From the NCBI RefSeq assembly GCF_000813985.1, contig NZ_JWLJ01000001.1, forward strand, positions 1,575,476 through 1,639,475: a DNA stretch of 64,000 nt, given 5' to 3'. The notes below the pieces were generated by a model, which worked only from the letters and a program-made list of their open reading frames with translations, was not told the origin of the DNA and did no database searches. Positions 46,563 to 58,057 of the stretch are shown here, piece after piece. The first letter of the stretch is position 1. Every line of letters begins with the position of its first letter. This stretch comes from Ruegeria sp. ANG-R. Its GTDB lineage: Bacteria > Pseudomonadota > Alphaproteobacteria > Rhodobacterales > Rhodobacteraceae. The position numbers and the translations under genes are program-made.

Positions 46563-47066
46563 TCACCCATCCCCGATGCCGTCGAGATACTGCATAGGAT
46601 CGAAATCCTCTGGCAGATCGTCCAGCCATTCCTCGGTCGTGGCCAGTTCTTCGGCCTCGTATGTCTCGGGTTTCCAGATCTGGAAAGTGTCACCCGCGGC
46701 GATAAAGAAAGCCTCTTTCTCAAGATCGATCTTGTTACGCAACTTGGCAGGCAGAACCAGTCGGCCGGTTTCATCCACATTGGTCGGAAAAGATTGCCCG
46801 TGGAATAAGCGCTGCAACATACGGCGCTGCATCGAGCCACGCGGCAGCGCGTCGATCTTGGCGTCCACCTCGTCGATCGCTTCCATCGTATAGCACTCAA
46901 GGTATTTGCGGCGGTGGTCGCCATAGACAATCACCAGTTCAGGATTGTCACCGGGCTGCCAGTTGGGATCGGACGCTTCAAGCACACGGCGAAACGAGGC
47001 CGGGATCGAGACCCTGCCCTTCGTGTCCACCTTATGGTGGCTTTCACCTCTAAACCTGCGCGCCAA
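46563..47066 (-). CDS. mraZ: Transcriptional regulator MraZ
   Basis: This 167-residue protein has two AbrB-like halves, each with the DxxGR signature ([14 protein letters not shown] and [14 protein letters not shown]). MraZ binds the promoter region of its own operon and represses dcw transcription in E. coli. The start is TTG 47066 with AAGGGA nine bases upstream. It is longer at the C-terminus than E. coli MraZ, with an acidic tail. A terminator-bearing leader precedes it. Confidence 0.95.
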
Positions 47067-47330: not shown

Positions 47331-47966
47331 GGGTACACAAGGGATGCCATGGGAATTCATGGAAATCAATAGAATTTTTTTCCAAAAAGATCGCTGTACC
47401 CATCGAGGCAAGGACGGATCAATCAAATTCAAGAAGAAAAGCCCTACAAATTGATCCAATTGTAAAACAATACACCATATATATGCAAAATAGAGCCAAA
47501 GAACTTCTTCCCACGATTTCCCATTAATTTTTCATACCGGCAGCAAATTCACGAGAATACCCAACAGAACCCAGCCACAAAGGACGAATCACAGATGCAT
47601 GACAGGCCATTCCCACGCCTGACCCATACTTTCCCATATCATCGCTGTGTCACCGACCGGAGCAGAGACAAGAGATGCTCCCTCCTACTGAAAACCGACG
47701 AAACATGCCCAAACAAACGCCAGTCCCGCCTAAGGTATAGGCACCCTTAATCAAAGCCTCAAAACGGCCAAACCCCATCCGCACGCGAAAACCTATATTT
47801 TCAAGGCAATTATTAGGGCTGGCCGGAATATCCCGACAATCCATGCGCTTGCTGCATAGCAGCATTGACGACGCGAAGTATTGTGCAATCGCAGCATTTG
47901 CCTATTTTCACCGTCAAGCAAGCGCCGAACGATGTCGGTAGCAACAAGAACAAACGGATGACGAAG

Positions 47967-48191: not shown

Positions 48192-48248
48192 ACGCGCACG
48201 AAACATCGAGATCAGGTCCGTCCTCCTCCCTTTCGGACCTGTATTTCC

Positions 48249-48461
48249 GCGGCAACGTCCTTCCTCCTCCCTGACGTTGCCGCACCCTATACCGGCCCTG
48301 ACCGCCGGAACCTGATACATCGGGGCTCTCCTCCTCCCTGCCTCGATGTTGAAAGCGCGCGGCGACGTCCTCCTCCTCCCTGACGTCGCCGCGTCTTCCT
48401 CATACCGGGATCAGACCCGGGTTCGGATACATCGAGGCCTTCCTCCTCCCTGCCTTGATGT
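48249..48461 (+). repeat. Duplicated two-hairpin unit within the CcsR-like array
   Basis: Hairpins 2 and 4 share the stem GCGGC(A/G)ACGTC, and hairpins 3 and 5 share ACATCG(G/A)GGC, with a period of 110-112 bases. Stem changes are compensated or tolerated (for example A-T to G-C in hairpins 2 and 4, and G-T wobbles in 3 and 5). The array therefore grew by tandem duplication of a two-hairpin unit. Confidence 0.85.
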
Positions 48462-48468
48462 AGAAAAG

Positions 48469-48514
48469 AACGGCGGTTCCCCTTCCTCCCCCCTGGGAAC
48501 CGCCGTTTTTCTTT
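48469..48514 (+). terminator. Rho-independent terminator of the DUF1127/CcsR-like operon
   Basis: A 13-bp stem (AACGGCGGTTCCC / GGGAACCGCCGTT) with a C-rich loop is followed by TTTCTTT. It serves both as sixth array element and as transcription end. Confidence 0.93.
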
Positions 48515-48598: not shown

Positions 48599-51235
48599 TC
48601 AGAACGGCACGTCGTCCTTTGCGGTCAGAAAGCGCGAGACCACTTTCTTCACCCCCGCCTTGTCGAAGTCGACTTCGACCTTGTCGCCCTCAATCCCCGT
48701 CACCGCGCCGTAACCGAATTTCTGATGAAATACCCGCTCACCCACCGTGAAGCTGGCCACAGCGGTCGCATCAATCACCGTATTCCGGCTTTCTTTGGGT
48801 TGAGACATCCCGTATTGCCCCTGCCGCGCCTGCATCCGTTTCCAGCCCGGAGAATTATAAACATTCGCCTCGGCCGCGCGGGTTTCAATGCCAGTGGTCT
48901 GCTGACTACCACCATATAGCCCCGACGCCGTCAGCACCTCGACATGATCCTCGGGCAGTTCATCAATGAACCGCGACGGCATCGAATTCTGCCACTGCCC
49001 GAACACCCGCCGGTTGGCGGCAAAGGAAATGGTACAGACTTCTTCCGCCCGCGTGATGCCCACATAAGCCAGCCGCCGCTCCTCTTCGAGGCCCTTGATC
49101 CCCTGCTCGTCCATCGACCGCTGCGAGGGGAACAGCCCGTCCTCCCACCCCGGCAGGAACACGGCGGGAAACTCCAGCCCCTTGGCCGCGTGCAGGGTCA
49201 TGATCGAGACCTTGGCCCCGTCGCCGTCCTGCTCATTGTCCATGACGAGGCTGACATGTTCCAAAAACCCCTGCAGGTTCTCGAAATTATCCAGCTGGTT
49301 GACCAGTTCCTTGAGGTTTTCCAGTCGCCCCGGCGCTTCGGGCGTCTTTTCGTTCTGCCAGTGTGCGGTATAGCCGGATTCATCCAGCACGATCTGCGCC
49401 AGTTCGATATGCGTATGCTCGGGTTCGCCGTAGCGGATCGGCGAGACACCGTCATCGATCACCGTATCGTCATCCACCTCGATCCGAGGCCCTCGCGTCA
49501 TCGCGTTCCATCGCGCCAGCCCGTCGACCAACTCACGCAGCGCCTTGCCGCCCTTGCCCTTGATCAGACCATTCCGAACCGCGATCCGCGCACCCTCAAT
49601 CAGAGACACCCCGTGTTCACGCGCGGTCACCTGAATCGTCTGCTGTGCCTTGTCGCCGAGGCCGCGCTTGGGCGTGTTCACGATCCGCTCGAACGCCAGA
49701 TCATCCTCGGGGCTGACCACCAGCCGGAAATAGGCCATGGCATCGCGAATCTCCATTCGCTCATAGAACCGAGGGCCACCAATCACCTTATAAGGCAGTC
49801 CGATGGTCAGAAACCGATCCTCAAACGCGCGCATCTGGTGCGAGGCGCGGACGAGGATGGCGATTTCGTTGAGATCGAATCTTTGGAAAGGAGCTTCCAA
49901 GGAAAGCCCCTCTTGTTGCCTCATTGTTAACTCCCAGACGAGGTCTTGGTTACTTTCTTCCGCCCAAAAGCCCTCTTCCGCAAAGTAGCTCTTGTGCTCC
50001 TTCAAATGATCAAGAACTTGCTCTCTACTATTAAGCTCTCGTAGTGCGCCCAATTCGTCGAGACGCTCCACCTCTTTCATCATTTGTTCTGATCGAGAGT
50101 TTTGCCTTCGTTTAGCGAAAGGTGAACTACCGTTGGCAAGGTCCTCGATCTTCTCTCCAATCCAGCGAGCTTCCTCCTCACCATCCCAATGACCGATCAG
50201 GCTGACCTTTTCTCCACTCGTTGCAGCCGTCCAAAGCTCTTTGCCCAGTCGGCTCTCATTGCCACGAATGACATTGGACGCAGCCGCCAGAATATGTTGA
50301 GTCGAGCGATAGTTCTGCTCCAGCTTTACGACCTCTGCCCCAGGGAAATCCTTCTCAAATCGCAGAATGTTTCCGACCTCAGCCCCACGCCAACCGTATA
50401 TCGACTGATCGTCATCTCCTACGCAACAAATGTTCTTGTGCCCTCCGGCTAGCAGGCGCAGCCAGAGATACTGAGCGACGTTGGCATCCTGATACTCATC
50501 GACGAGGATGTACCGGAACCAGCGCTGGTATTGCTCCAACACGTCCGGGTGCGTCTGGAAAATCGTGACCATGTGCAGCAAAAGATCGCCGAAATCCGCT
50601 GCATTCAATTCACGCAGACGATTTTGGTACTGGGCGTAGAGCTCAATACCTCGGTTATTAAAGGCTCCGGCGTCCGCAGCGGGAACCTTGTCCGGTGTCA
50701 GTGCTCGATTCTTCCAATCATCGATGATTCCTGCCAGATGGCGCGGCGGCCAACGCTTCTCATCGATATTGTTGGCCTTAAGCAACTGCTTAAGCAAACG
50801 TAGCTGGTCGTCGGCATCCAGAATTGTGAAGTTCGATTTTAGATTGACCAGTTCCGCATGACGACGCAACAACTTTGCACTGAGGGAGTGGAAAGTGCCC
50901 ATCCATCTGATCGGGTGATCCAGTTCAAATGGGGTCTTCGCCAATCTTTCTGCCATCTCACGCGCAGCTTTATTGGTGAAAGTCACCGCAAGTATCTGAT
51001 GCGGAGATGCGTGATTATGTTTGATGAGCTGCGCCAATCGCGCCATCAGAGTTTTTGTTTTCCCCGTCCCTGCACCCGCAAGAATCAAAACCGGCCCAGT
51101 GATCTGTTTAGCGGCTTTCTCTTGCGCCGAGTTCAAGTCACTCAAATGACGGTCATCCGGTGGTGACCTGCGAACCATCGCCCGCGCCGACAGCGATGCG
51201 CCTTCGAAGGCGTCCATTTCGTCAAAACTGCTCAT
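48599..51235 (-). CDS. uvrD: ATP-dependent DNA helicase UvrD/PcrA
   Basis: This 878-residue SF1A helicase has motif I AGAGTGKTKT, Ia AVTFTNKAA, II LVDEYQD, III GDDDQSIYGWRGA, IV EQNYRST, V TLHAAKGLEF and VI YVGITRAEE. A C-terminal domain ends in GERVFHQKFGYG. Between domains, about residues 370-455, it carries an unusual charged insertion (SRSEQMMKEVERLDELG, KEHKSYFAEEGFW) not expected in family members. Bases from about 49865 to the start are near 50% GC by eye, against about 60% downstream, so the gene looks mosaic. It acts in nucleotide-excision and mismatch repair. Confidence 0.94.
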   Translation of the reverse strand: MSSFDEMDAFEGASLSARAMVRRSPPDDRHLSDLNSAQEKAAKQITGPVLILAGAGTGKTKTLMARLAQLIKHNHASPHQILAVTFTNKAAREMAERLAKTPFELDHPIRWMGTFHSLSAKLLRRHAELVNLKSNFTILDADDQLRLLKQLLKANNIDEKRWPPRHLAGIIDDWKNRALTPDKVPAADAGAFNNRGIELYAQYQNRLRELNAADFGDLLLHMVTIFQTHPDVLEQYQRWFRYILVDEYQDANVAQYLWLRLLAGGHKNICCVGDDDQSIYGWRGAEVGNILRFEKDFPGAEVVKLEQNYRSTQHILAAASNVIRGNESRLGKELWTAATSGEKVSLIGHWDGEEEARWIGEKIEDLANGSSPFAKRRQNSRSEQMMKEVERLDELGALRELNSREQVLDHLKEHKSYFAEEGFWAEESNQDLVWELTMRQQEGLSLEAPFQRFDLNEIAILVRASHQMRAFEDRFLTIGLPYKVIGGPRFYERMEIRDAMAYFRLVVSPEDDLAFERIVNTPKRGLGDKAQQTIQVTAREHGVSLIEGARIAVRNGLIKGKGGKALRELVDGLARWNAMTRGPRIEVDDDTVIDDGVSPIRYGEPEHTHIELAQIVLDESGYTAHWQNEKTPEAPGRLENLKELVNQLDNFENLQGFLEHVSLVMDNEQDGDGAKVSIMTLHAAKGLEFPAVFLPGWEDGLFPSQRSMDEQGIKGLEEERRLAYVGITRAEEVCTISFAANRRVFGQWQNSMPSRFIDELPEDHVEVLTASGLYGGSQQTTGIETRAAEANVYNSPGWKRMQARQGQYGMSQPKESRNTVIDATAVASFTVGERVFHQKFGYGAVTGIEGDKVEVDFDKAGVKKVVSRFLTAKDDVPF

Positions 51236-53199: not shown

Positions 53200-53657
53200 T
53201 CGCGACCGGGGAAACCGCACCGGATTTGATCCGCATCGCATTCCTCACGGCATAAGGCATACGTTAGGTTTGCGGTCTTGATGGTCAATTGATGCGATCC
53301 CTGCAGGCCCCGATTCGTTTGACGGGGCGTGCGGTCTTCAAGTCGCTCATGGAATGCCCGGCGCTGACCGGTTCCATCCGAGATTCATATCAGCGATGTC
53401 AGTGCAGTGGTATATTCCAGGCGATTTTTTTGCGACTGTTCCTCAGGATGGCTCTGAATCCTGCAACATCCGAAACAGATCATTTGTGCCAACAAAAATA
53501 CAACATTTGATGCTGCGGCGCAGCATGTGTAAAAGAAAAGCGCCAAAAGGCGGCGTTTGCGAGCGATAACATGCCGGTTCTACCCAGAACTACAGATGTA
53601 CGTGGCCGTATTGTCCGCCTAATCACTAGGCCACACCTATAAAGACCGGGACCTGCC
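53200..53657. promoter_or_regulatory. Upstream region of pyruvate carboxylase gene
   Basis: This 458-base gap contains a hairpin GCCCCG-N10-CGGGGC (53307-53328), a possible end for the cyclase transcript. An odd dyad ATGCTGCG-G-CGCAGCAT (53510-53526), an operator-type palindrome, lies about 130 bases before pycA. AT-rich bases at 53420-53545 are likely promoter territory. Short frames here look like chance. Confidence 0.5.
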
Positions 53658-56600
53658 ATGACTGACTTCAACAAGATCCTCATCGCCAATCGCGGCGAGA
53701 TTGCCATACGCGTGATGCGTGCAGCCAACGAGATGGGCAAACGCACCGTCGCGGTCTTCGCCGAGGAAGATAAGTTGGGCCTGCACCGGTTCAAGGCGGA
53801 CGAGGCCTATCGCATCGGCGCGGATCTGGGCCCGGTCGCCGCCTACCTGTCGATCGATGAGATTATTCGTGTGGCCAAGGAATGCGGCGCCGACGCGATC
53901 CACCCGGGCTATGGCCTGTTGTCCGAGAACCCGGATTTCGTGGATGCCTGTGTTCAGAACGGGATCACCTTCATCGGCCCCAAGGCCGAGACCATGCGTG
54001 CGCTTGGTGACAAGGCCAGTGCGCGGAAGGTTGCGATTGCCGCCGACGTGCCGGTCATCCCCGCAACCGAAGTCCTGGGCGACGACATGGAGGCCATCAA
54101 GGCCGAAGCAGCCGAGATCGGATACCCGCTGATGCTGAAAGCCAGCTGGGGCGGCGGCGGACGCGGGATGCGCCCGATTCTGTCCGAGGATGAGTTGGAG
54201 GAAAAGGTGCTGGAAGGCCGCCGCGAGGCCGAGGCCGCCTTTGGCAATGGCGAGGGGTATCTGGAAAAGATGATCACCCGCGCCCGCCATGTCGAGGTGC
54301 AGATTCTGGGCGACAAACATGGCGAGATTTATCACCTCTATGAACGCGACTGTTCGGTTCAGCGCCGGAACCAAAAGGTCGTGGAACGCGCCCCTGCCCC
54401 TTACCTGACCGATGAACAGCGGGCCGAAATCTGTGAGCTGGGCCGCCGCATCTGCGCCCACGTGAACTATGAATGCGCGGGCACCGTCGAATTCCTGATG
54501 GATATGAACACCGGCAAATTCTACTTCATCGAAGTGAACCCACGCGTTCAGGTAGAGCACACCGTCACCGAAGAAGTCACCGGCATCGATATCGTGCAGG
54601 CTCAGATCCTGATCGCCGAAGGCAAGACACTGGCCGAGGCCACCGGCAAAGCCAACCAGGATGATATCCGCCTGAACGGCCATGCGCTGCAAACGCGCGT
54701 TACTACAGAAGACCCGCTGAACAACTTCATCCCGGATTATGGCCGTATCACCGCCTATCGCTCGGCCACGGGCATGGGTATCCGTCTGGATGGCGGCACC
54801 GCCTATGCGGGCGGTGTGATCACGCGCTACTACGACTCGCTGTTGACCAAGGTGACTGCCTGGGCACCGACCCCTGAAAAGGCCATTGCCCGAATGGACC
54901 GGGCGCTGCGCGAATTCCGTGTACGTGGTGTCTCGACCAACATCGCCTTTGTCGAAAACCTGCTGAAGCACCCGACGTTCCTGTCGAATGAATACACCAC
55001 CAAGTTCATTGACGAGACGCCCGACCTGTTCCTGTTCAAGAAGCGCCGCGACCGGGGCACCAAGGTTCTGAACTATATCGCAGACATCACCGTGAACGGG
55101 CACCCCGAAACCAAAGACCGCCCGACGCCGCGCCCCGACCTGAAAGAGGCACGCCCGCCCGCGCCGAAAGCTGATCCTCAGATGGGCACCCGCAACCTGC
55201 TGGAGCAAAAAGGCCCGCAGGCGGTGGCCGACTGGATGAAGGCACAGCGCCAGCTGCTGATCACCGACACCACCATGCGTGACGGGCACCAGTCGCTGCT
55301 GGCGACGCGGATGCGTTCGATCGACATGATCAAGGTAGCGCCAACCTATGCGGCCAACTTGCCGCAACTGTTTAGCGTTGAATGCTGGGGCGGCGCAACC
55401 TTCGACGTGGCCTATCGCTTCCTGCAGGAATGCCCGTGGCAGCGCCTGCGTGATCTGCGCGAGGCGATGCCGAACCTGATGACACAGATGCTGCTGCGCG
55501 GTGCGAACGGAGTTGGTTACACCAACTATCCCGACAACGTTGTGCAGGAGTTCGTGCGACAAGCTGCGCAGAACATCGATGTATTCCGCGTGTTCGACTC
55601 GCTCAACTGGGTTGAGAACATGCGTGTCGCCATGGATGCCGTCGTTGAAAACGGCAAAATCTGTGAAGGAACCGTGTGTTATACCGGCGATATCCTCGAC
55701 CCGGATCGTGCCAAGTACGACCTGAAGTACTATGTCGGCATGGCGAAAGAACTGCGCGACGCGGGCGCGCATGTTTTGGGCCTGAAAGACATGGCCGGCC
55801 TGCTGAAACCAAGCTCGGCCCGGGTTCTGATCCGCGCGCTGAAAGAAGAGGTTGGGCTGCCGATCCACTTCCACACCCACGACACGGCTGGTATCGCCAG
55901 CGCCACCATTCTGGCAGCCTCCGAGGCCGGCGTGGATGCGGTGGATTGCGCGATGGATGCGTTCTCGGGCAACACATCTCAGGCGACGCTGGGCACCGTG
56001 GTCGAGGCCCTGCGTCATACCGAGCGTGATACCGGGCTGGACATCAAGGCCATCCGCGAGATCAGCGATTATTTTGAGGCGGTGCGCGGCCAGTATGCGG
56101 CGTTTGAATCCGGGCTGCAGGCCCCCGCGTCCGAGGTTTATCTGCACGAAATGCCAGGCGGCCAGTTCACCAACCTCAAGGCGCAGGCGCGCAGCCTGGG
56201 GTTGGAAGAGCGCTGGCACGAGGTTGCCCAGATGTATGCCGACGTAAACCAGATGTTCGGCGATATAGTGAAGGTGACGCCCTCATCGAAGGTTGTTGGC
56301 GATATGGCTCTGATGATGGTCAGCCAAAACCTGACCCGGGCTGACGTGGAAAACCCCTCGACCGACGTGGCGTTTCCGGATTCGGTCATTGATATGATGC
56401 GCGGCAATCTTGGTCAGCCTCCGGGAGGGTTCCCGGATACGATCATCAACAAAGCCCTGAAAGGTGAAACACCAAACACCGAACGCCCCGGAAAGCATGT
56501 CGAAGCGGTTGATCTGGAAGCCGCCCGTGCCGATCTGTCAAAGCAGCTGGACGGCAAGGAAATCGATGATGAGGATCTGAACGGGTATCTGATGTACCCC

Positions 56601-57095
56601 AAGGTCTTCCTGGACTACATGGGGCGACACCGCAGCTATGGCCCGGTCCGCGCGCTGCCCACACGGACCTTCTTCTACGGCATGGAGCCCGGCGAAGAGA
56701 TCACTGCCGAGATCGACCCTGGCAAAACACTGGAAATCCGGTGTCAGGCGATCGGTGAAACCGACGAGAATGGCGAGGTACGCGTCTTCTTTGAACTCAA
56801 CGGCCAACCGCGCGTGGTCCGGGTGCCTAACCGTCTGGTCAAAGCAACAACCGCGCAGCGCCCCAAGGCCGAGATTGGCAACGCCAATCACATCGGTGCG
56901 CCGATGCCCGGTGTCGTTGCAACCATCGCCGTCTCCGCCGGTCAGGAGATCAAAGAGGGCGATCTGCTGCTGACCATCGAGGCCATGAAGATGGAAACCG
57001 GCATCCATGCCGAACGTGACGCGGTGGTCAAGGCTGTCCACGTCCAGCCCGGTGGCCAGATTGACGCCAAGGACCTGCTGGTCGAGCTGGAATAA
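53658..57095 (+). CDS. pyc: Pyruvate carboxylase
   Basis: This 1145-residue single-chain biotin enzyme makes oxaloacetate from pyruvate, ATP and bicarbonate. The biotin carboxylase domain covers about 1-450 (ILIANRGEIAIRV, SWGGGGRGMR, FIEVNPRVQVEHT). The carboxyltransferase domain starts near 530 (DTTMRDGHQSLLATR, FHTHDTAGI). The biotinyl domain at the end carries EAMKMETG with biotin-Lys 1111. Length matches the alpha-4 class. It supplies anaplerosis, which fits a roseobacter living on organic and amino acids. Confidence 0.98.
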   Translation: MTDFNKILIANRGEIAIRVMRAANEMGKRTVAVFAEEDKLGLHRFKADEAYRIGADLGPVAAYLSIDEIIRVAKECGADAIHPGYGLLSENPDFVDACVQNGITFIGPKAETMRALGDKASARKVAIAADVPVIPATEVLGDDMEAIKAEAAEIGYPLMLKASWGGGGRGMRPILSEDELEEKVLEGRREAEAAFGNGEGYLEKMITRARHVEVQILGDKHGEIYHLYERDCSVQRRNQKVVERAPAPYLTDEQRAEICELGRRICAHVNYECAGTVEFLMDMNTGKFYFIEVNPRVQVEHTVTEEVTGIDIVQAQILIAEGKTLAEATGKANQDDIRLNGHALQTRVTTEDPLNNFIPDYGRITAYRSATGMGIRLDGGTAYAGGVITRYYDSLLTKVTAWAPTPEKAIARMDRALREFRVRGVSTNIAFVENLLKHPTFLSNEYTTKFIDETPDLFLFKKRRDRGTKVLNYIADITVNGHPETKDRPTPRPDLKEARPPAPKADPQMGTRNLLEQKGPQAVADWMKAQRQLLITDTTMRDGHQSLLATRMRSIDMIKVAPTYAANLPQLFSVECWGGATFDVAYRFLQECPWQRLRDLREAMPNLMTQMLLRGANGVGYTNYPDNVVQEFVRQAAQNIDVFRVFDSLNWVENMRVAMDAVVENGKICEGTVCYTGDILDPDRAKYDLKYYVGMAKELRDAGAHVLGLKDMAGLLKPSSARVLIRALKEEVGLPIHFHTHDTAGIASATILAASEAGVDAVDCAMDAFSGNTSQATLGTVVEALRHTERDTGLDIKAIREISDYFEAVRGQYAAFESGLQAPASEVYLHEMPGGQFTNLKAQARSLGLEERWHEVAQMYADVNQMFGDIVKVTPSSKVVGDMALMMVSQNLTRADVENPSTDVAFPDSVIDMMRGNLGQPPGGFPDTIINKALKGETPNTERPGKHVEAVDLEAARADLSKQLDGKEIDDEDLNGYLMYPKVFLDYMGRHRSYGPVRALPTRTFFYGMEPGEEITAEIDPGKTLEIRCQAIGETDENGEVRVFFELNGQPRVVRVPNRLVKATTAQRPKAEIGNANHIGAPMPGVVATIAVSAGQEIKEGDLLLTIEAMKMETGIHAERDAVVKAVHVQPGGQIDAKDLLVELE

Positions 57096-57873: not shown

Positions 57874-57948
57874 GCGGGCGTAGCTCAGGGGTAGAGCATA
57901 ACCTTGCCAAGGTTAGGGTCGGGCGTTCGAATCGCCTCGCCCGCTCCA
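57874..57948 (+). tRNA. tRNA-Gly (anticodon GCC), copy 1
   Basis: A 75-base cloverleaf runs from GCGGGCG to CGCCCGC-T-CCA with CCA encoded. The anticodon loop CTTGCCAAG gives GCC. Confidence 0.97.
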
Positions 57949-57982: not shown

Positions 57983-58057
57983 GCGGGCGTAGCTCAGGGG
58001 TAGAGCATAACCTTGCCAAGGTTAGGGTCGGGCGTTCGAATCGCCTCGCCCGCTCCA
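57983..58057 (+). tRNA. tRNA-Gly (anticodon GCC), copy 2
   Basis: Identical to the copy 34 bases upstream over all 75 bases, a tandem duplication that probably shares one transcript. Confidence 0.97.

Follow-up and report, generated by a model that had tools for sequence, protein, structure and literature searches.

In the genome of Ruegeria sp. ANG-R (GCF_000813985.1), we analyzed a stretch of 64,000 nucleotides of contig NZ_JWLJ01000001.1 (positions 1,575,476 to 1,639,475; here called the window), which contains an array of hairpins directly downstream of a short DUF1127 gene. The encoded protein has its nearest named relatives in Ruegeria species. At the level of the DNA, the gene order, three units, conserved stems, a terminator and a conserved promoter block are apparent, and the features are compiled in the table below. 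Downstream, the array is followed by a helicase gene on the reverse strand. The divergent neighbor on the other side (46563-47066, minus strand) is presumably mraZ. In Rhodobacter sphaeroides, the mraZ leader is described to yield the sRNA UpsM (PMC7866481), and with the mraZ-like neighbor here, two sRNA loci may therefore adjoin.

Features of the DUF1127 locus and its surroundings (positions in the window)
Feature	Position	Strand	Remarks
Upstream palindrome, proposed PhaR operator site 1	47850..47864	+	TGCTGCATAGCAGCA, contains CTGCATAGCAG (47852-47862)
Proposed RpoH-like promoter	47881..47908	+	TTGTGC 47881-47886, CCTATTTT 47901-47908; conserved core
Second palindrome, proposed operator site 2	47884..47893	+	TGC-AATC-GCA, between -35 and -10
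DUF1127 gene, CcaF1-like, 74 aa	47967..48191	+	PF06568, E 4.5e-16
Unit 1, predicted CcsR-like RNA 1	48208..48288	+	Hairpins 48213-48241, 48249-48283; RF02791 1-83/83, 43.8 bits, E 2.8e-9
Motif-free spacer hairpin, units 1/2	48292..48308	+	CCGGC...GCCGG; MFE and centroid fold
Unit 2, predicted CcsR-like RNA 2	48314..48397	+	Hairpins 48317-48349, 48357-48394; RF02791 1-83/83, 34.5 bits, E 1.6e-6
Motif-free spacer hairpin, units 2/3	48405..48420	+	CCGGG...CCCGG; MFE and centroid fold
Unit 3, predicted CcsR-like RNA 3	48425..48511	+	Hairpins 48428-48462, 48468-48508; RF02791 1-83/83, 31.3 bits, E 1.4e-5
Intrinsic terminator	48466..48514	+	Loop CCTTCCTCCCCCC (motif, one substitution), then T run; inverted repeat I1, sequence
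UvrD-type helicase gene, downstream neighbor	48599-51235	reverse	
Proposed further PhaR site, pyruvate carboxylase leader	53511..53525	+	TGCTGCGGCGCAGCA; gene 53658-57095
Two tandem tRNA genes	57874-57945 and 57983-58054		Equal scores

Inspection of the letters, a repeat search, folding and a stem finder agree on six hairpins with C-rich loops at 48213-48508, so that all six stem-loops placed by a preliminary description of this DNA at 48213-48514 were recovered. Five of the loops expose the motif CCTCCTCCC, as that description had claimed (starts 48222, 48263, 48330, 48372 and 48442). The sixth hairpin had been described as a C-rich terminator; it is a terminator, but it is also a motif hairpin, which carries CCTCCCCCC with a single substitution in its loop. 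Searching both strands of the 64-kb window yielded five copies of CCTCCTCCC, all of them in array loops, and none of 100 shuffles of the window reached five copies (mean, 0.57). The array region folds at -146.9 kcal/mol compared with a mean of -94.1 for shuffles (n = 100; z = -11.6), and the fold contains eight stem-loops in total, the six motif hairpins plus two short motif-free hairpins in the spacers, which look alike in relatives (70 of 163 spacers inspected). Across the whole genome, CCTCCTCCC occurs in 15 places versus 18 in the reversed control. Since this 9-mer is not rare genome-wide, the signal lies in its clustering in paired hairpins, and the raw motif count was dropped as evidence.

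The start-to-start distances of the motifs alternate (41, 67, 42, 70 and 43 nt), which indicates that the hairpins come in pairs. The Rfam model for CcsR1 (RF02791) describes two hairpins in 83 positions, and it fits the array end to end three times. As these end-to-end matches agree with the paired spacing, the array is predicted to encode three CcsR-type RNAs of two hairpins each, not six independent RNAs; the second hairpin of unit 3 serves as the terminator as well. All three scores fall below the gathering score of 65.3 bits (best, 43.8), which is why a default Rfam scan stays silent here, and the array is filed as a CcsR-type (cuckoo) RNA locus and not as a member of Rfam CcsR1. The units show the two hairpins with CCUCCUCCC loops expected of cuckoo RNAs, with five exact motifs and one carrying a single change. 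The three CcsR1 matches and the PF06568 gene upstream thus bear out the view that CcsR/cuckoo-type RNAs lie behind a DUF1127 gene. Membership in alpha-r14 (RF02344) was considered and rejected: the best match of 49.3 bits lies under the gathering score of 58.8, and the spacing is that of pairs, not triplets.

The genome contains seven DUF1127 genes, only two of which have CCTCCTCCC close by. Behind the second one (L040, contig C23) there is a single CCTCCTCCC hairpin followed by a motif-free terminator (motif at position 1663 of the reverse complement), and no Rfam match was found at this locus at E values up to 0.1.

The stems of related units are kept in structure and varied in sequence. In the second hairpin, compared over 68 of 89 extracted units, 98.1% of the pairs are standard, and 9 of 11 pairs have changed on both sides. 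Double-changed cells numbered 153 versus 44 in shuffles, and slid controls were 27 to 59% paired. The analysis is confined to the second hairpin, because the MAFFT whole-unit alignment shifted the motif of the first hairpin by three bases in many rows. Since the unit sequences are related, these pair changes should not be read as independent events.

For R. sphaeroides, the literature describes a single transcript that carries ccaF1 and four CcsR RNAs (PMC10253847), in line with the co-transcription stated in the preliminary description; RNase E, together with CcaF1, produces CcsR1-4 from the ccaF1 3' UTR (PMC10253847, PMC8625941). The Ruegeria locus is very probably an operon of this CcaF1-CcsR (cuckoo) type, with a stress promoter, a DUF1127 RNA-binding protein and three tandem RNAs that would silence mRNAs. 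From this analogy, we infer its transcription, processing, targets and function. An RpoH-type stress promoter would drive one transcript encoding the DUF1127 RNA-binding protein and carrying in its 3' part the three two-hairpin RNAs up to the intrinsic terminator. As in R. sphaeroides, RNase E would cut the spacers with the assistance of the DUF1127 protein and release three mature RNAs. Their loops would expose an anti-Shine-Dalgarno sequence and pair with purine-rich ribosome-binding sites, leading to mRNA silencing. The RNA copies would be largely redundant, so that unit number would mainly set the dose.

Published work on related RNAs names several targets. The flhR mRNA is given as a target of CcsR (PMC8307010), and CcsR1-4, together with Pos19, are named as involved in down-regulation of the pyruvate dehydrogenase complex (PMC7074977). 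For NfeR1 (alpha-r14), CCUCCUCCC loops are reported to silence ntrB at the translation initiation region, with three redundant copies (PMC10746234). The terms "Rhodobacter," "Shine" and "ar14" do not occur in the available text of an R. pomeroyi sRNA survey (PMC4809877).

A candidate target in the present genome is prpE, encoding propionate-CoA ligase, which has GGGAGGAGG, the perfect complement of the loop motif, five bases before its start (L002, start codon at 1515). The screen covered 40 non-array sites among the matches listed plus nine other sites of the own genome, of which one, that of prpE, precedes a long reading frame; the same ribosome-binding site precedes prpE in four genomes (the own and three more of the genus). 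Another GGGAGGAGG site, recurring in five genomes, lies before a protein that we take to be a TRAP-transporter small subunit, and a further one precedes another conserved protein in three genomes. As strong ribosome-binding sites are expected in some genes, these sites are only a lead.

It is improbable that the only role of the hairpins is to stabilize and end the DUF1127 mRNA, or to titrate the DUF1127 protein as a sponge, without any effect in trans. They do form the 3' end of the DUF1127 transcript, and the spacers fold too, but the loop motif stays constant while the stem covaries, lone units on plasmids (see below) have no DUF1127 core in the stretches examined, and the loops of alpha-r14 RNAs act in trans (PMC10746234).

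The preliminary description had also regarded the array as an expanded set, from which it derived a possible difference in target range or dosage. It had set six hairpins against the four RNAs of R. sphaeroides. The term was wrong, and the inferred difference in range or dosage falls with it, as the set is not larger. Two stem-loops are described for RS0680a, an R. sphaeroides RNA of the CcsR kind (PMC3927594). We take locus L200 to be of the R. sphaeroides type: it scores 103.8 bits to CcsR1, encodes a DUF1127 protein of 71 residues, the length given for CcaF1 (PMC10253847), and has eight motifs in four units plus a separate terminator. Hairpins were counted in 80 of 120 related loci of 1,250 nt each, with a counter that misses diverged hairpins; counts ranged from 2 to 14, and six was the commonest (30 of 80), with fewer in 27 loci and more in 23. 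In shuffled sequence, the counter found 0.12 motif hairpins per 1,250 nt. The idea that the CcsR set of this organism outnumbers that of R. sphaeroides deserves almost no credence: six hairpins outnumber "four RNAs" only if hairpins are mistaken for RNAs, and larger arrays do exist in other relatives, but the R. sphaeroides-type locus has four units and the present one three, six hairpins are the commonest number, and the genome yielded no further CcsR1 match at E < 0.03 among the 150 of 1,586 first-look candidates that were scored. The unit counts led us to reject an expansion; the array is of ordinary size for its known kind, a three-unit CcsR/cuckoo operon.

Within the genus, 36 of 37 genomes (own included) have close pairs of exact motifs; outside it, isolated pairs were found in 3 of 24. 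CcsR1 matches at E values up to 1e-4 occur in 116 of 149 genomes of the family (own included) and in none of 14 control genomes, 8 of which do have matches when E values up to 1 are allowed. The gathering score is reached in only 8 of the 149. Counted under stricter filters, and per genome and not per array, there was one match in 33 family genomes, two in 24, three in 26 and at least four in 33.

Upstream of the DUF1127 genes lies a conserved block in which TTGCTGCATAGC[AG]GCATTG, or a variant of it, is separated from ATTGTGCANNNGCAGCA by some 12 variable bases, and CCTAT[TC]TT often follows (32 of 81 upstream rows of the alignment inspected). Its core is present in 79 of 81 upstream regions. 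The array promoter resembles the form given for RpoH2 promoters of Sinorhizobium meliloti, CTTGCC-N15-16-CCTATCT (PMC4843759), and fits an alphaproteobacterial RpoH promoter. For the ccaF1-CcsR promoter of R. sphaeroides, RpoHI/RpoHII are named (PMC10253847), and the array promoter resembles this known form in sequence. A search of the own genome with the core TTGTGCNNNNGCAGCA, allowing at most one mismatch, gave 38 matches versus 32 in the reversed control and is thus uninformative beyond the array promoter.

The promoter region also contains two palindromes, which suggest a further layer of control. The PHB-granule-binding regulator PhaR may repress the operon through both of them, on top of stress sigma control; accumulation of PHB would titrate PhaR to the granules and derepress the operon, and the RNAs would then lower pyruvate dehydrogenase and acyl-CoA formation. 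We consider the chances of such a layer to be evenly balanced. It is added to the explanation as a stress operon and is not an alternative to it. Near the promoter, site 1 contains CTGCATAGCAG, an exact match to the PhaR site published for R. sphaeroides, CTGCNNNGCAG (PMC12542648). In 76 of 81 regions, the 45 nt preceding the core contain a relaxed form, C[TC]GCN3GC[AG]G, compared with 2.35% of 4,000 background stretches. The exact form CTGCN3GCAG was found in 39 of the 81 regions and in none of the 4,000 stretches; many regions have GCGG, and this partial conservation speaks against the PhaR layer. The centers of the two palindromes are 31.5 nt apart in 68 regions and 30.5 nt apart in 6 (74 of 81 measurable), and this distance is fixed although the intervening bases vary. 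Among 12 top CcsR1 loci from the bacterial family, the core is present in all, and the spacing is kept in 11, including the R. sphaeroides type, the exception being L202. The core and the exact palindrome are absent around the six other DUF1127 genes of the genome, which also argues for the PhaR layer. Against it stands that all these counts come from related sequences and are not independent, and that conservation of site 2, whose spacer is four bases long and which overlaps the -35 element, may reflect only that of the promoter.

The genome encodes PhaR (PF07879, 1.8e-27), and Pfam places PhaC, phasin and PhaR genes at the phaC-phasin gap. The sequence TTGCTGCANNGCA occurs 10 times in the genome (reversed control, 2): twice in the phaC-phasin gap, once in the array promoter and seven times inside reading frames. 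The stricter TGCTGCNNNGCAGCA is found in five places and never in the reversed control. The array promoter shares it with the phasin promoter region and the pyruvate carboxylase leader, which favors the PhaR layer, but the remaining two of the five sites are inside reading frames. Across 38 genomes of the genus, TGCTGCNNNGCAGCA occurs 106 times versus 7 in the control; this supports the PhaR layer as well, although only a minority of these sites have been placed. Paired sites of the CTGCNNNGCAG type are present in 32 of the 38 genomes (control, 0). Of 30 such loci examined, 24 are flanked by phaC and phaR signatures, again in favor of PhaR, while 2 show phaC only and 4 lie elsewhere.

A second class of palindromes (about 33 nt) was seen at what are presumably nitrate-assimilation leaders in three of four loci examined. 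In one Ruegeria genome, a leader hairpin (L301, near 1670-1700) carries CCTCCTCCC in its loop, and the gene behind it is one that we take to be for nitrate transport; since the loop is changed in two relatives, its occurrence is probably due to chance.

Precedents for PhaR action of this kind exist. In S. meliloti, PhaR is reported to repress pyc and favor pdh, and phasins are induced when PHB titrates PhaR (PMC12542648); this fits the site in the pyruvate carboxylase leader, just as the link of CcsR1-4 and Pos19 to lowered pyruvate dehydrogenase (PMC7074977) fits the proposed outcome. An sRNA gene, mmgR, is also repressed by AniA/PhaR, and its control depends on a dyad located in the -35/-10 boxes (PMC8401924). 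On the other side, PhaR is absent from the available description of the R. sphaeroides operon promoter, which names RpoHI/RpoHII (PMC10253847). Among the matches listed in a literature search, no paper joined PhaR with CcsR, DUF1127 or RSP_6037, which is weak as proof of absence. Overall, the site evidence is consistent with PhaR control, which is unproven.

Motif pairs also occur away from the array: the same extra pair was found in three Ruegeria genomes and a different-looking one in a fourth (G030). A blastn search with the shared pair hit 18 plasmid records from eight named genera plus one Paracoccaceae, 15 of them typed as mobilizable; the array itself had no match in the plasmid records. 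No protein genes lie under the matches in the 18 records, and as the gene table holds no RNA genes, it does not allow prior annotation of these units to be judged. All 12 plasmid units examined (of 18) have two exact motifs and an ATTGTG core 49 to 51 nt before the first motif. Each is preceded by a PhaR-like palindrome (exact CTGCN3GCAG in 8, loosened in 4), and no DUF1127 core was found in the 12 stretches. Their two stems consist of 97.3% standard pairs and covary little: double changes affect 3 of 19 pairs, each in a single one of the 12 sequences. A common gene block precedes the unit in 7 of the 12, followed in six of these by a strawberry-notch-like helicase gene after the unit; the remaining five have other locations. 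Seven of the 12 units were compared with Rfam, and all seven match both CcsR1 (E 2.2e-8 to 0.015) and ar14 below the gathering scores. Lone promoter-plus-hairpin units were found in none of 289 genomes across the class, a sample that says little, since it is thin per family and includes only four genomes of this one (own included). Among the papers listed by a literature search, none dealt with plasmid-borne CcsR-like units. The lone copies suggest that mobile elements also spread CcsR-like RNAs.

Taken further, and held with somewhat less confidence than PhaR repression at this one locus, these sequence comparisons lead us to a tentative proposal: the CcaF1-CcsR operon of Rhodobacterales may be a PhaR target, in which a two-site operator of fixed spacing would couple PHB storage to RNAs that block ribosome-binding sites and reduce pyruvate dehydrogenase, with coordinated control of pyruvate carboxylase and phasin. 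The one-unit copies on mobilizable plasmids, with the same promoter and operator and no DUF1127 gene nearby, would plug an RNA of their own into the stress and storage circuit of the host. CcsR RNAs have so far been studied as oxidative-stress RNAs, and the interest here may lie in their control and in the plasmid copies, not in the array. If a PhaR operator is indeed part of CcsR promoters, including loci of the R. sphaeroides type, it would provide a testable reason for the action of these RNAs on pyruvate dehydrogenase.

Compared with known systems, the locus is most readily set beside CcsR1-4/CcaF1 of R. sphaeroides (RF02791; judged via L200), with which it shares the DUF1127 gene, tandem two-hairpin units with CCUCCUCCC loops, a terminator and the promoter block. 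It differs in having three units instead of four and in its scores below the gathering threshold, and it uses the last motif hairpin as the terminator, whereas L200 has an extra hairpin for this. It likewise resembles the cuckoo/CIN1 loci of alphaproteobacteria, in which a short DUF1127 gene is combined with CcsR-like RNAs (Reinkensmeier and Giegerich 2015, as cited in PMC10253847). With alpha-r14/NfeR1 of rhizobia (RF02344), the array shares the loop motif and a match below the gathering score, but NfeR1 has three hairpins in one 123-nt RNA and an RpoD promoter (PMC10746234). MmgR (alpha-r8) of S. meliloti, unlike the array, is a single 77-nt RNA of another family, and it offers a precedent for a PHB-linked sRNA gene under AniA/PhaR (PMC8401924).
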